Of a stretch of 26,460 nucleotides of DNA, positions 5,857-14,529 are shown piece by piece; the stretch's first letter is position 1, and each line of letters starts with the position of its first letter. The stretch spans positions 1 to 26,460 of IMG/VR virus record IMGVR_UViG_3300045999_002924. The stretch is one strand, 5' to 3'. Source of the stretch: a virus. The notes under the pieces were generated by a model. It had not been told where the DNA came from. It did no database searches and worked only from the letters and a program-made list of their open reading frames with translations. The position numbers and the translations under genes are program-made.

Positions 5857-7097
5857 ATGGCACTTGTCGTAAAAGATCGGGTCAAGGAAACCACGACTAC
5901 TACCGGCACAGGCACTTATACGCTGGCCGGTGCAGCAACGGGGTTTCAATCGTTCGCTGTTGTAGGTGACGGTAACGCTACCTACTACACGGTTACGAAC
6001 GGCACAGACTGGGAGGTTGGGGTCGGAACGTATACGTCATCCGGCACGACTCTTAGCCGAGACACGATTCTTGCGTCGAGCAACAGTGGGTCAGCAGTCA
6101 ACTGGGGTGCGGGTAGCAAGGATGTGTTCCTGACCTATCCGGCTGAACGAGCCGTGTTGGTGGACGACAATTCTGAGATTGTTCCTGCGACATCAGCGAG
6201 TCTGGTTGGCAACACCGTCACGATTCAGCTTAGATACAGCAGCACACCTGGGGCCGTTCCGACGGCATTGAGCCTTTCAACTGGTGAGTTGGTGGTTAAC
6301 ACCGCTGACGGAAAGTTGTATTTCAAAGATAGCAGCGGGACGGTCAAGGTTCTGTCGCAGGCCGATCAGATCGCTCCGCTGACGACAAAGGGCGATCTGC
6401 TTGTCAACGACGGCACGAGCAACGTGCGTCTGCCTGTCGGGACTGATGCTTACGTTCTGACCGCTGACAGCACTCAATCGTCTGGGGTGAAGTGGGCTGC
6501 TGGTGGTGGCGGCGGCGGTGCAGCAAGCGCAGACATCCAAGAGTTCACCAGCACCGGCTCATCGACATGGACTAAGCCTGCTGGGGCGAAGTTCGTCTAT
6601 GTGCTGATGTTTGGTGGTGGTGGCGGTGGTGGGTCAGGTAGGAAACGGTCTAGCGGCGGTCTTGCTACTGCGGCGAGTGGCGGTGCAGGTGGCGCTGCGG
6701 GTGGCAGGACAGAGTTGTGGATTCCCGCGTCTTTGCTTGGCTCTACTGAGACAGTTACGGCGGGTTTGCAGGAAGCAGCACTACTACGAACGGTGGTGGA
6801 ACAGGTGGTTTTGGAGGATCTTTGTTTCAAACTTCAACGGCGGCAACTGCTGGAGGTGGTTCAGGTGGAAATACAACCGGCGCACCAAACGGTATTGCTG
6901 GCCCTGGCGCATCTTCTTATTTTGTCGGTGGTTCTGGAGGTGGTGGCGGTGCAAGCGGCAGCACTACTGCTGGCAATGGTGGCACAGGCGGCTATCCCGG
7001 TGGTGGTGGTGGTGGCGGCGGTGCTGGCTACACAGTTGACTCAGGTGCTGGTGGCAATGGTGGCGACGGTTACGTCCGTGTTGTGACCTTCTTCTGA
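5857..7097 (+). CDS. Glycine-rich tail/fibre protein needing a -1 frameshift
   Basis: The N-terminal 300 residues resemble phage tail-surface proteins: TYTLAGAATGFQSF, VGDGNATYYTV, then GDLLVNDGTSNVRLPVGTD and VLTADSTQSSGVKWA. From about 6490 the protein becomes glycine-rich. After codon 304 (6766-6768) the starting frame turns into valine/leucine runs typical of GGT read out of register and ends at 7086, whereas the -1 frame continues SSTTNGGGTGGFGGS and ends GGDGYVRVVTFF at 7097, a usual ending for such proteins. The crossover sits on G GGT TTG at 6762-6768. The joined product is about 413 residues. Either programmed frameshifting or an indel explains this. Likely role: host-surface contact. 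Confidence 0.75.
6762..6768 (+). promoter_or_regulatory. Candidate -1 ribosomal slippery heptamer
   Basis: G GGT TTG fits the X XXY YYZ rule in the frame of the gene that starts at 5857: GGT can re-pair as GGG and TTG as TTT. It lies exactly where coding character changes frame. I see no obvious strong stem-loop or internal Shine-Dalgarno stimulator nearby, which lowers confidence that the shift is programmed. Confidence 0.45.
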
Positions 7098-10903: not shown

Positions 10904-10929
10904 GCGCGGCCTTCGGGCCGCGCATTTTT
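10904..10929 (+). terminator. Strong Rho-independent terminator-like hairpin
   Basis: GCGCGGCC (10904-10911) and GGCCGCGC (10916-10923) form a perfect 8-bp GC stem around TTCG, followed by ATTTTT. This is the best terminator shape in the window. It lies between head genes pointing the same way, so genes further right need readthrough, antitermination or another promoter. Confidence 0.75.
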
Positions 10930-10937
10930 GAAAGGAT
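10923..10937 (+). repeat. 15-bp leader repeat, copy 2
   Basis: Identical to 10421-10435. It overlaps the last stem base and T run of the terminator and supplies the GAAAGGA ribosome site for the gene at 10943. Confidence 0.8.
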
Positions 10938-10942
10938 CGATC

Positions 10943-11434
10943 ATGCCGAATACCAAGGCTGTCGGTGTCGCTTACAGCGACCCCGAGTTTGAAAGCGTTG
11001 CCGTTACCGGCGCTGTTACTAGCGCTTCGGTTGCCGTTACCGGCGCTGTTACTAGCGCTTCGGTTGCCGTTACCGGAGCCATTACCGGCGCAAGCGTGGC
11101 GGTGACCGGCAAACTGAGCGGCACGCAACTGGATCTGAACGCGCCTGTGACTAAGACTGCTAGCTTCACGTTAGGTGAAACTGAGAACTTTGTCATTGCC
11201 AACGGCTCTGCGGCAAACGTTACTGTGACGCTGCCGTCAGGCGCTGATCAGATTGGCCGTGTTCTGTTTGTCAAAAATCTGTCGGGCACTTACACCCTGA
11301 TCTCGGCGTCGTCCAACGTCAAACCGCGAACTTCTAACACTGCTGGCACGGCTATTTTGGCGGCGACGGCGGGTGCTTTCGCAATGCTGGTTTGCGAGGA
11401 TGGCACGAACTGGGTCGTAATGGCTGGCAACTAA
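10943..11434 (+). CDS. Repeat-containing decoration or head-fibre protein
   Basis: 163 residues. The N-terminus MPNTKAVGVAYSDPEFES leads into three 11-residue repeats (VAVTGAVTSAS twice, then VAVTGAITGAS) and a degenerate fourth starting VAVTGKLSG. Such alternating beta repeats in phage fibres often form a triple-stranded stem. The C-terminal domain (FTLGETENFVIANGSAANVTVTLP onward, ending DGTNWVVMAGN) is beta-rich and typical of phage surface tips. Its place after coat and decoration genes suggests a capsid-surface fibre; this is inference. The ATG at 10943 is preferred over upstream TTG because GAAAGGA lies 6 nt before it. Confidence 0.75.
   Translation: MPNTKAVGVAYSDPEFESVAVTGAVTSASVAVTGAVTSASVAVTGAITGASVAVTGKLSGTQLDLNAPVTKTASFTLGETENFVIANGSAANVTVTLPSGADQIGRVLFVKNLSGTYTLISASSNVKPRTSNTAGTAILAATAGAFAMLVCEDGTNWVVMAGN
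10997..11095 (+). repeat. 33-bp tandem repeat inside the decoration gene
   Basis: Units at 10997-11029 and 11030-11062 are identical over all 33 bp; 11063-11095 is a diverged third copy and a further partial copy starts at 11096. The unit length is a multiple of three, so copy number can change while the frame stays open. Confidence 0.9.
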
Positions 11435-11467: not shown

Positions 11468-11656
11468 ATGCCCCTCATTTACATGAAGCACCCGGTTCAC
11501 GGGGACAAAATCGCCACTCTTGAGCTAGAAGCCGAGCATGATGAAAAGCACGGCTGGGAGCGGTATACTCCGGGCGAAGAGCCGGCACCGGAGCCGGTGA
11601 ACGAATTGCGGCCGCGCCGCCGCCGGGAGTCAGCCCATGTCGACGTCAGCCGGTGA
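11468..11656 (+). CDS. Small phage protein upstream of gp4-like gene
   Basis: Sixty-two residues beginning MPLIYMKHPVHGDKIATLELEAEHDEKHGWERY and ending in an arginine-rich stretch, RPRRRRE. The MPLIYMKHPVHG opening with a HGW-x-RY turn is one I recognise from unassigned proteins in the head region of P22-like phages. Its 3' end overlaps the next gene by 20 nt, so the two are coupled. Function unknown; the acidic N-terminal part and basic tail might bridge capsid and connector parts, which is speculation. Confidence 0.75.
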   Translation: MPLIYMKHPVHGDKIATLELEAEHDEKHGWERYTPGEEPAPEPVNELRPRRRRESAHVDVSR

Positions 11657-12353
11657 ACTGATCAACGGTGCGCTGCGCCTCTTAGGCCAGCTTGCAGAGG
11701 GCGAGACGCCGTCAGCCGAGACGTCTGCGGACGCCTTGATGGCGATGAACCAGATGATTGACAGTTGGAGCACCGAGCGGCTGTCGGTGTTCGCGACACG
11801 CGATGACGTCTTTACTTGGCCGGCCAACACGATCAGCCGGACTTACGGCCCGTCGGGCGACTTTGTCGGCACCCGGCCTATCTTGCTGGATGACAGCACC
11901 TACTTCAAAGATCCGTCGAGCGGGCTGTCGTATGACATCCTGTTCATCAATCAGGACCAGTACAACGGCATCGCGTTGAAGACGGTCGGGAGCACGTTCC
12001 CGCAGGTGATGTGGGTCAACATGACCTACCCTGACGTCGAGATGTATGTGTACCCAAGGCCGACCAAGGACTTGGAGTTTCATCTGGTGTCGGTGCAGGC
12101 GCTGTCGCAACCTGCCAACTTGGCGACAGTGCTGTCGTTCCCGCCAGGCTACCTGCGGGCGTTCCGGTACTGCTTGGCGATGGAGTTAGCGCCTGAGTTC
12201 GGGGTCGAGCCGTCGATGCAAGTGCAGCGGATTGCGATGGTGGCTAAGCGCAACCTGAAGCGGATCAACAATCCTGACGACCTGATGGCGATGCCGTACA
12301 GTCTGGTGAACCGACGTAGGCAAAGATTCAACATCTTCTCCGGCGGGTATTGA
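11637..12353 (+). CDS. Tail accessory / head-completion protein, P22 gp4-like
   Basis: A 238-residue protein. The N-terminal helices (AGELINGALRLLGQLAEG, then ADALMAMNQMIDSW at about residues 5-44) are characteristic of the gp4 family, which binds under the portal, closes the channel after packaging and starts tail assembly. It is longer than P22 gp4 (166), with a beta-rich central part and a helical C-terminal part ending RRRQRFNIFSGGY. Its TGA overlaps ATG as TGATG at 12351-12355; that ATG was originally the start of the gp10-like gene. Confidence 0.85.
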   Translation: MSTSAGELINGALRLLGQLAEGETPSAETSADALMAMNQMIDSWSTERLSVFATRDDVFTWPANTISRTYGPSGDFVGTRPILLDDSTYFKDPSSGLSYDILFINQDQYNGIALKTVGSTFPQVMWVNMTYPDVEMYVYPRPTKDLEFHLVSVQALSQPANLATVLSFPPGYLRAFRYCLAMELAPEFGVEPSMQVQRIAMVAKRNLKRINNPDDLMAMPYSLVNRRRQRFNIFSGGY

Positions 12354-12364
12354 TGAAGACGCCT
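12353..12364 (+). other. Severed first four codons of the gp10-like gene
   Basis: ATG AAG ACG CCT encodes MKTP and overlaps the gp4-like stop as TGATG, the junction style used elsewhere in this genome. Joined directly to 13036, it would restore MKTPILGASYV, the expected beginning of the gp10-like protein. From this ATG the frame instead stays open through the inserted element to TAA at 13025-13027. Confidence 0.75.
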
Positions 12365-12991
12365 TTATCGAGCGTTCCACCACGACTTTCCCATCCATAT
12401 GGCCGTCACCATATGGATGGAGATATTGTGCCGCGCGGCAACATCTTTGCGTTTTTCTTTACGTTGCTTGGAGTACCAAATGTCTTTAGCTTGCTCAAAC
12501 GTAAGCTTTTTAACCCGCCTCAGTTCGTAGATTGCATGCTGGCAGTTTTCTGCTGGCGATACATACTCAAGATTGTCAACGTGATTGTTAGTACGGTTTC
12601 CGTCTTTATGGTTTATGTGAGCGCCTTGAGGGCGGGCACCAAGAAAAGCTTCCGCAACCGCAGTGTGAATGGCTTTATGTTGTCGAACCGCGTTGGCAGA
12701 CAGCGTAACAAATCGGTACCCATCGCGCCGCAAAGCAGGCTGCAATACATACGCAGCATCAACATAAGCCAAACCGCGAACAATCCGGTTCACAACCCTT
12801 TGAGAGACACTAAACAAAGCCGCAACTTTTCGCTGGCTTTTTTCCTTGGTATATGCCGTTTTAAGGGCCGAAATTTCTTCTGGCGTAAACTGCTGATGGT
12901 ACTTTCCGCGAGAGGATGTTCGTCGAATCCTTCCATCATTGCTAACTTCATAGTCCAGCTCAAAACCAATCAGCGGTTTCCAAATTTGCAT
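12365..12991 (-). CDS. NUMOD4/HNH homing endonuclease
   Basis: 208 residues on the strand opposite the surrounding genes. The NUMOD4 motif WKPLIGFELDYEVSNDGRIR is at residues 4-23. A helix-turn-helix-like segment follows at about 37-73. The HNH core is at about 105-150: QHKAIHTAVAEAF, then AHINHKDGNRTNNHVDNLEY with H125, N127-H128, the D130-G131-N132 turn and N140. A second helix-turn-helix lies near 164-200. An AAAAAGGAG ribosome site precedes the ATG on its own strand. It should nick or cut DNA at a related uninterrupted gp4/gp10 junction so that repair copies the element in. It lacks TTA, CTA and TCA codons, which is why the exact antisense frame is open. Confidence 0.92.
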   Translation of the reverse strand: MQIWKPLIGFELDYEVSNDGRIRRTSSRGKYHQQFTPEEISALKTAYTKEKSQRKVAALFSVSQRVVNRIVRGLAYVDAAYVLQPALRRDGYRFVTLSANAVRQHKAIHTAVAEAFLGARPQGAHINHKDGNRTNNHVDNLEYVSPAENCQHAIYELRRVKKLTFEQAKDIWYSKQRKEKRKDVAARHNISIHMVTAIWMGKSWWNAR

Positions 12992-13011
12992 GTTGGCGCT
13001 CCTTTTTACAC

Positions 13012-13026
13012 AAGGAGAATATCATA
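13012..13026 (+). promoter_or_regulatory. Ribosome site AAGGAG with ATA start candidate
   Basis: AAGGAG at 13012-13017 is followed after 6 nt by ATA at 13024-13026, in frame with the gp10-like protein; ATC at 13021 is also in frame. The ATA overlaps TAA (13025-13027), the stop of the frame that begins at the severed ATG, giving an ATAA junction suited to termination-reinitiation. No ATG, GTG or TTG is available in frame before GTG at 13090. Confidence 0.5.
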
Positions 13027-14529
13027 AAAACCCCTATACTGGGAGCTTCTTATGTAGCGGCCAGCATCAACGCCGCGAACGACCGCTGCGTGAACCTCTA
13101 CCCAGAGATCGTGCAGCAGGGCGGCAAGGAGCCTGCGTTCCTGCGCCGGGCGCCGGGGCTGAAGCTCATTACGCCGACGGTGAGCGGCTCGCCTGTCTCA
13201 ACGCTTGACAACGGCCCGGTGCGCGGGCTGCACGTCTACGGCGGCAAACTGTACGTCGTGACGGCAGAAGCCCCGGCAACGCTGCCCTACCCCGAGACCA
13301 AGCTGTGGGAGTTGGATGCCAACTACGCGGCCACGCTGCGGGGCACGGTCGCTACTGACGTCGGCACGGGCCAGGTAACGATGGCCGACAACGGCACACA
13401 GATGTTCTTGGCGTGCGGCGATGCGGCCGGCACTAGTTACATCTACAACAACAGCACGACCGCGTTTGCAGAGATTACGGACCCTGATTTCCCCGGCGCC
13501 TCCTCTGTCGGATTCATTGACGGGTACTTTGTCTTCAGCGAGCCAGACAGCCAGAAGTTGTGGGTGACTGAACTGCTGGACGGCACCTCGGTCGATCCGT
13601 TGGACTTCGCAAGCGCCGAGGGCGCGCCTGACGACATCCTGTCAGTTGTTGTCAGCAACCGTGAGATCTGGGTGTTCGGTACGACCTCGACCGAGGTCTG
13701 GTACAACGCGGGCGGGCCTGACTTCCCGCTTGAGCGGATCGCAGGCGCCTTCAACGAACTGGGCTGCGCCGCCCAGTATTCGACCGCCAAGTTGTCAAAC
13801 GTGGTGTTCTGGCTGGGCCGCAACCAAGAGGGCCAAGGGATCGTCTATCGGTCGAACGGCTACATCGGCGAGCGGATCAGCACGCACGCGGTCGAGACCG
13901 CTATCCAAAGCTACGACACAATCGAAGATGCGATCAGCATGGTGTACCAGCAGGACGGGCACCCGTTCTATGTGCTGACCTTCCCGACTGCCAACAAGAC
14001 TTGGGTCTACGACTTGGCGACTGGCTTGTGGCATGAGCGGGCCGGATGGATTGCGTCTGAGTTTACGCGGCATCGCGCCAACTGCATAGCGTCCTTCAAC
14101 GGCAAGATCATCGTCGGTGACTACATCAACGGCAAGCTTTACGAGCTTGACTTGAACACCTACAAGGATGACGGCGACGTGCAGCGTTGGCTGCGGTCGT
14201 GGCGGGCGCTTCAGACCGGCCAGAACAACCTGAACCGCACGGCGCAGCACGCGCTGCAACTGGACTGCGAGTCGGGTGTCGGACTGGTGACGGGCCAGGG
14301 TAGCGACCCCCAAGTCATGCTGCGGTGGTCAGACGATGGTGGGCACATCTGGTCGAACGAGCACTGGCGGTCGATGGGCAAGATCGGCGAGACCGGGCGC
14401 CGGGTGATCTGGCGGCGGCTGGGGATGACCGAGCGCCTGCGGGATCGGGTGTACGAACTGAGCGGCACAGATCCGGTGAAGATCGCGATCATGGGCGCTG
14501 AGCTGCGCGCGAGCGGAACCAATGCCTAA
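13024..14529 (+). CDS. Packaged-DNA stabilisation / tail accessory protein, P22 gp10-like
   Basis: About 501 residues from ATA at 13024, or 479 from GTG at 13090. The conserved N-terminal stretch KTPILGASYVAASINAAN lies upstream of the GTG, so the longer form is probably the functional one. The body is a beta-propeller-like repeat (GPVRGLHVYGGKLYVV, GYFVFSEPDSQKLWVTEL, ILSVVVSNREIWVFGTTSTE) and the end has MLRWSDDGGHIWSNE, a gp10-family hallmark. In P22, gp10 binds below gp4, seals the portal and holds the tail needle and tailspikes. The homing endonuclease element took away its normal start. Confidence 0.85.
   Translation: MKTPILGASYVAASINAANDRCVNLYPEIVQQGGKEPAFLRRAPGLKLITPTVSGSPVSTLDNGPVRGLHVYGGKLYVVTAEAPATLPYPETKLWELDANYAATLRGTVATDVGTGQVTMADNGTQMFLACGDAAGTSYIYNNSTTAFAEITDPDFPGASSVGFIDGYFVFSEPDSQKLWVTELLDGTSVDPLDFASAEGAPDDILSVVVSNREIWVFGTTSTEVWYNAGGPDFPLERIAGAFNELGCAAQYSTAKLSNVVFWLGRNQEGQGIVYRSNGYIGERISTHAVETAIQSYDTIEDAISMVYQQDGHPFYVLTFPTANKTWVYDLATGLWHERAGWIASEFTRHRANCIASFNGKIIVGDYINGKLYELDLNTYKDDGDVQRWLRSWRALQTGQNNLNRTAQHALQLDCESGVGLVTGQGSDPQVMLRWSDDGGHIWSNEHWRSMGKIGETGRRVIWRRLGMTERLRDRVYELSGTDPVKIAIMGAELRASGTNA

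Follow-up and report, generated by a model that had tools for sequence, protein, structure and literature searches.

Comparison of 79 non-identical element copies from the HNH/NUMOD4 and HNH/AP2 families suggests that an HNH element at the junction of two phage head genes, gp4 and gp10, has probably been selected for ribosome passage, preserving gp4-gp10 coupling together with a rebuilt gp10 start. In the proposed explanation, a free-standing, antisense homing-type element would be tolerated at this translationally coupled junction through two repairs. The element would restore gp10 at its 5' end by supplying a new Shine-Dalgarno (SD) sequence, a start codon, ATA in this case, and synonymous codons, and the strand opposite the endonuclease gene would stay free of stops. 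Ribosomes ending gp4 would reinitiate at the old gp10 ATG, read through the 224 codons that span the element here and terminate at the rebuilt gp10 start, where the ATAA overlap would restore coupling. Their passage would keep the late mRNA covered, and gp10 would be reinitiated even at AUA, AUC or AUU. The insertion point, the rebuilt start, the open frame, the selection for its openness and its ATG, and the placement of its stop are evident from the sequences; ribosomes may really use the bridge.

A homing-type element at the gp4/gp10 junction

The window, i.e. the whole stretch of DNA that was analysed (26,460 nucleotides; metagenomic virus record IMGVR_UViG_3300045999_002924), carries a P22-like head-completion module. 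Its gp4-like head-tail adaptor gene (11637-12353, plus strand; PHROG phrog_12985 / head-tail adaptor Ad3) is intact, and the TGA stop (12351-12353) shares one base with the original gp10 ATG (12353-12355), giving TGATG. What is left of this start, ATG AAG ACG CCT (12353-12364, plus strand), forms the left insertion flank, matches the empty-site relatives L003-L006 and now starts the frame that we call the bridge; overlap and codons read as originally reported. An HNH/NUMOD4 homing-type endonuclease gene of 208 aa follows on the minus strand (12365-12991). Its product matched HNH_3 (E 4e-11) and NUMOD4 (E 4e-8) above the Pfam cut-offs and an HNH endonuclease in PHROG, which confirms the antisense NUMOD4/HNH insert of the original prediction.

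The uninterrupted junction that this prediction anticipated was found in L003-L006. These relatives join exactly at the predicted point (TGATGAAGACGCC followed by CATCCTCGGC, encoding MKTPILGASYV); their sequence across the junction is TGATGAAGACGCC-CATCCTCGGCGCC... and their gp10 proteins are 98-100% identical. A one-base gp4/gp10 overlap was present in 63 of 74 element-free relatives. The window's element also occurs in the independent contigs L001 and L002, and L014, a phage with 86% identical gp10, carries it while its closest relatives L012, L015 and L016 are empty. This independent occurrence shows that the element is no assembly accident, and the site is thus occupied or empty at one precise position in two sets of relatives (window, L001 and L002 vs L003-L006; L014 vs L012, L015 and L016). 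By its domain content and its presence or absence at one site we classify it as a free-standing HNH homing-type element, whose enzyme may home. A group I intron with an endonuclease was rejected: a search for self-splicing RNA gave zero Rfam matches in 12250-13150 at E 1, the approximately 44 nt of non-coding sequence leave no room for one, and the flanking frames differ.

All loci with a gp4/gp10 element are metagenomic. A protein search of cultured phages revealed no close relative of the window's endonuclease (best identity <60%); in the closest element-free relative, Phage DSL-LC05, gp4 and gp10 overlap by one base. A pattern scan of genome contigs gave 5 matches, about the chance expectation.

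Two further features were seen elsewhere in the window. In a tail-fibre-like, glycine-rich ORF (5857-7086), the glycine-rich frame is abandoned near 6750-6830, within 6517-7097, and continues as GGTGGFGG...GYVRVVTFF in a different frame that ends at 7097; this frameshift could be a sequencing error, a mutation or programmed. Near-perfect tandem repeats (GCCGTTACCGGCGCTGTTACTAGCGCTTCG) at 10990-11090 in a small structural ORF (10928-11434) encode a repeated VAVTGAVTSAS motif.

The rebuilt gp10 start

The complete gp10-like gene (packaged DNA stabilisation / head closure Hc3; PHROG phrog_578, E 9e-130) occupies 13024-14529 on the plus strand and restarts at ATA. An SD sequence read from the plus strand, AAGGAG (13012-13017), lies 6 nt upstream of this ATA and is conserved in relatives; nearly all copies of the element supply an SD to gp10. 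Compared with the empty relatives, 10 of the first 11 codons (ATA AAA ACC CCT ATA CTG GGA GCT TCT TAT GTA; 13024-13056, plus strand) are changed, at third positions only and including ATG to ATA. The original prediction had recognised the rebuilt codons at the right edge of the element (ATA AAA ACC CCT, 13024-13035, then ILGASYV), but had the frame resume at 13036; it resumes at 13024, and the anomaly reaches codon 11 (13056).

The prediction had also placed the element in gp10 after codon four, which holds as the entry point of this HNH/NUMOD4 element, and had described gp10 as split, which would leave a four-codon stub and a truncated or unstarted body. The old ATG with codons 1-4 does lie left of the insert as such a split would leave it; however, SD, start and codons 1-4 are all rebuilt to the right, and other elements at the same junction place ATG, GTG or TTG at the corresponding position. 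The pN/pS of gp10 codons 2-21, upstream of a conserved internal Met22, is 0.26 in loci with ATA or ATC, compared to 0.22-0.24 in relatives starting with ATG. This purifying selection implies that the gp10 N-terminus is translated. The rebuilt start and the selection on codons 2-21 rule out a split or truncated gp10, a reading that we consider highly improbable; the sequences indicate that gp10 restarts complete at ATA 13024.

An upstream in-frame AUG does not account for gp10 at the ATA loci. Nearly all of them have an in-frame stop 4-11 codons upstream of the gp10 start (e.g. TAG GAG TAT ATC ATA), and in the window, where the gp10 frame is open for 26 codons upstream, this stretch holds no ATG, GTG or TTG. 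Gp10 may initiate at AUA, a poor start codon in laboratory systems; at some loci AUC at -1 is a possible start, which does not apply to L107, L130, L136 and L143. A further, element-less lineage (L113, L115, L117, L120, L121, L124, L125, L129, L131, L133, L134, L137, L139) has gp10 at ATT after GGAG, preceded by a 9-codon mini-ORF from gp4 whose TAA lies on the ATT; these sequences probably represent a scar of the element with an apparent AUU start codon. The loci were collected by gp10, start-pattern or endonuclease searches, and the frequencies of start codons among them are therefore biased.

The recoding may prevent re-cutting of the site or exact loss of the element by recombination. Alternatively, codons 1-11 were merely co-converted from a diverged donor phage, with no selection for resistance to cleavage or recombination, a reading that is compatible with our main explanation and to which we give even odds. 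Right edges have evidently been exchanged between elements, judging from L119, which bears the right edge of the L116 type, and from the NUMOD4 endonuclease tree, on which the non-AUG gp10 start requires at least 6 changes; both are as expected from co-conversion, and so is L103, in which, as in some relatives, the start codon alone is unusual. Against co-conversion, though not decisively, the recoded tract of the window changes 10 of 11 codons and ends sharply at codon 11, with 10 differences in 33 nt vs about 2-5% in the rest of gp10; the tract of L014 is shorter (6 differences in 33 nt). Donor co-conversion explains the recoded codons as well as protection does.

The endonuclease gene has its own SD sequence (AAGGAG on the minus strand, 12999-13004; from the sequence), which forms an inverted repeat with that of gp10 (13012-13017). 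The resulting CTCCTT...AAGGAG arrangement (12999-13017) could hide both SDs on their mRNAs, and longer SD inverted repeats (CCTATTTA...TAAATAGG) occur in other elements. The CTCCTT/AAGGAG hairpin is found in many but not all elements and is largely a by-product of two facing SDs. An extended -10-like site, TGNTATnnT, is frequent on the endonuclease strand over the gp10 start, as a consensus match only.

The open strand opposite the endonuclease gene

The four-codon ATG stub is not dead. It opens a frame that continues across the entire element as far as the rebuilt gp10 start; this bridge, which the original prediction had not noticed, is kept in nearly all elements at the gp4/gp10 site. In the window it runs on the plus strand from the original gp10 ATG through 224 open codons opposite the endonuclease (12353-13027) and ends with TAA (13025-13027), overlapping the ATA start (13024-13026) as ATAA. 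Bridge and endonuclease codons lie in mirrored register, and any TTA, CTA or TCA codon in the endonuclease gene is therefore a stop in the bridge; codon counts gave zero of the three in the window's gene.

Across the 79 endonuclease genes at the junction, TTA made up 6 of 472 TTR codons, CTA 3 of 605 CTN codons and TCA 1 of 238 TCN codons, and 71 genes had none of the three. In the same genes, A-ending codons accounted for 69-75% in the Lys, Glu, Gln and Arg2 boxes and for 16-34% in other fourfold boxes. With one gene taken per cluster below about 70% identity (31 clusters), the codon bias of the individual genes predicts 208 TTA, CTA and TCA codons in total, against 8 observed; several residual stops sit upstream of the bridge start and are thus harmless.

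Long antisense frames can be an artefact of codon usage, since GC-rich genes frequently have open antisense frames in the same register, others in the window included. We give this reading almost no weight here and consider it ruled out by three controls. The gp4 and gp10 genes of the same phages use TTA, CTA and TCA normally: only 5 of 74 gp10 genes lack all three over a similar length, yet the endonuclease genes, which avoid these codons far more, are AT-richer than gp4 and gp10. NUMOD4/HNH homologues at other sites use the codons freely (TTA 71%, CTA 26%, TCA 38% of the same boxes); none of 53 was without them, with 3 to 23 in each, and the 8 that are also antisense to their neighbours still have 6-12. 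In the second family, HNH/AP2, 22 of 24 genes at the gp4/gp10 junction have zero such codons vs 8 of 56 elsewhere, with TTA at 1 of 111 vs 114 of 245.

Codon usage also leaves the start of the bridge unexplained. In the most frequent NUMOD4 group, a C-terminal His codon gives rise to the bridge ATG; 38 of 38 genes have CAT there, whereas CAT and CAC both occur at four further invariant His positions of the catalytic region (24:20, 15:29, 28:16 and 3:41). A long open frame with a conserved start could also code for a functional overlapping protein, either of the element or of the phage. The bridge product, however, is conserved less than the endonuclease in 603 of 603 pairs, with no pair reversed (mean identity 46% vs 71%), and has no match to a Pfam or PHROG family; third positions of the endonuclease vary freely, and different endonuclease families yield unrelated products. 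We rejected the overlapping protein, which is most unlikely, on the conservation of bridge versus endonuclease. Taken together, the controls, the CAT-only codon and the poor conservation of the product indicate that what selection maintains is a start, a stop and an unobstructed path between them, and not a protein.

Stop placement, intervening genes and remnants

Both ends of the bridge lie close to the neighbouring genes. The first bridge ATG is at most 33 nt from the gp4 stop in 69 of 79 elements, and in 78 of the 79 the bridge stop lies at -18 to +8 nt relative to the gp10 start. In the window, each stop overlaps the next start as in a coupled chain (TGATG, 12351-12355; ATAA, 13024-13027), although in the +1 frame a start codon followed by AA (NTGAA or ATAA) automatically yields an overlapping stop, and the exact overlap is thus partly a by-product.

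The open strand might serve only to cover the late mRNA with ribosomes, against Rho-dependent polarity or decay, while gp10 initiates independently from its own SD. A good gp10 SD is present in nearly all element copies and openness alone would suffice for such cover; we nevertheless regard it as an unlikely account of the whole pattern. The stops are concentrated no more than 18 nt from the following start, also in loci where the frames do not match and dedicated bridge stops are found (L163, L173, L207 and L051). Intervening genes are coupled again: in L123 and L095 an extra gene separates gp4 from the element, and the stop of this gene overlaps the bridge start (TAATG and ATGA, respectively). 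In L176 a 53-codon gene lies between the element and gp10; the bridge TAG is 4 nt before its ATG, and its own stop overlaps the gp10 start. Finally, among the element-less remnants, whose length is far too small for polarity to matter, 5 of 7 types (L054, L107, the L113 group, L148 and L184) keep a mini-ORF linking gp4 to gp10, which is absent in the remnants L102 and L178. For the chains and remnants, translational coupling is a better explanation than protection of a long mRNA by itself, although both benefits may apply.

A 53-codon gene (MEFTFRSRKVEV...) is found between gp4 and gp10 both with and without a homing element, in L176 and L184. Departures from the general layout were observed in L160, with three stops in the bridge frame, and in L154, L182 and L197, with one bridge stop and a GTG 6 nt later. 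L284, a distant gp4/gp10 phage, has an antisense NUMOD4-type element with 8 stops on the opposite strand and offers a natural comparison case.

Implications and comparison with known systems

We lean, on the comparisons above, towards the wider claim that an antisense selfish gene has evolved a stop-free, ribosome-transparent opposite strand with start and stop signals of its own, and depends on coupled reinitiation of sufficient strength at a standing AUA, AUC or AUU start of a phage structural gene. If true, a parasite gene can settle in a tightly coupled pair of essential genes by way of a translatable opposite strand, and would place a usually invisible constraint on synonymous codons; the arrangement would be a natural counterpart of home-and-rescue gene drives. 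The locus offers an exceptionally clear natural test case for translational coupling across several hundred nucleotides and for AUA, AUC and AUU reinitiation in bacteria. It also holds a warning for annotation, as the plus-strand frame resembles a gene and annotation pipelines will call gp10 short because its start is ATA.

Free-standing homing endonucleases of the T4 type (seg/mob) are present or absent at phage gene junctions, with expression tuned to spare their neighbours, and mobE starts by translational coupling at UAAUGA (PMC2988022). The present elements share with these an endonuclease gene, HNH or other, that is present or absent at a phage gene junction; they differ in being antisense to the operon, with the opposite strand kept open as a bridge. 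In the open literature searched, PMC2988022 included, we found no antisense homing gene with an open bridging opposite strand. Elements lodged within the coding region of an important phage gene are known, namely mobE in nrdA of Aeromonas phage Aeh1 and mobA in the T4 topoisomerase; the interrupted genes are genes-in-pieces that yield two polypeptides (PMC2988022). The likeness ends at the insertion: gp10 is restarted whole, not made as two polypeptides, and its completeness and the purifying selection on its N-terminus set it apart from genes of the mobE/nrdA type.

Fungal mitochondrial elements of the Allomyces atp6 type carry a replacement gene end. In engineered home-and-rescue drives (PMC7968924), the nuclease gene is accompanied by a recoded part of the gene that it interrupts. 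With both, the phage element has in common a nuclease gene joined to a recoded piece of its target, here codons 1-11 as a recoded functional copy of the interrupted segment; in contrast to both, this piece comprises only 33 nt plus a new SD, concerns a 5' end and occurs in a phage. Translational coupling of adjacent genes by stop/start overlap is described in PMC12548453. The ATGA, ATAA or GTGA and TGATG or TAATG overlaps at the two ends of the bridge resemble those of such coupled neighbours, whereas the middle frame is here the non-conserved antisense strand of a parasite gene.
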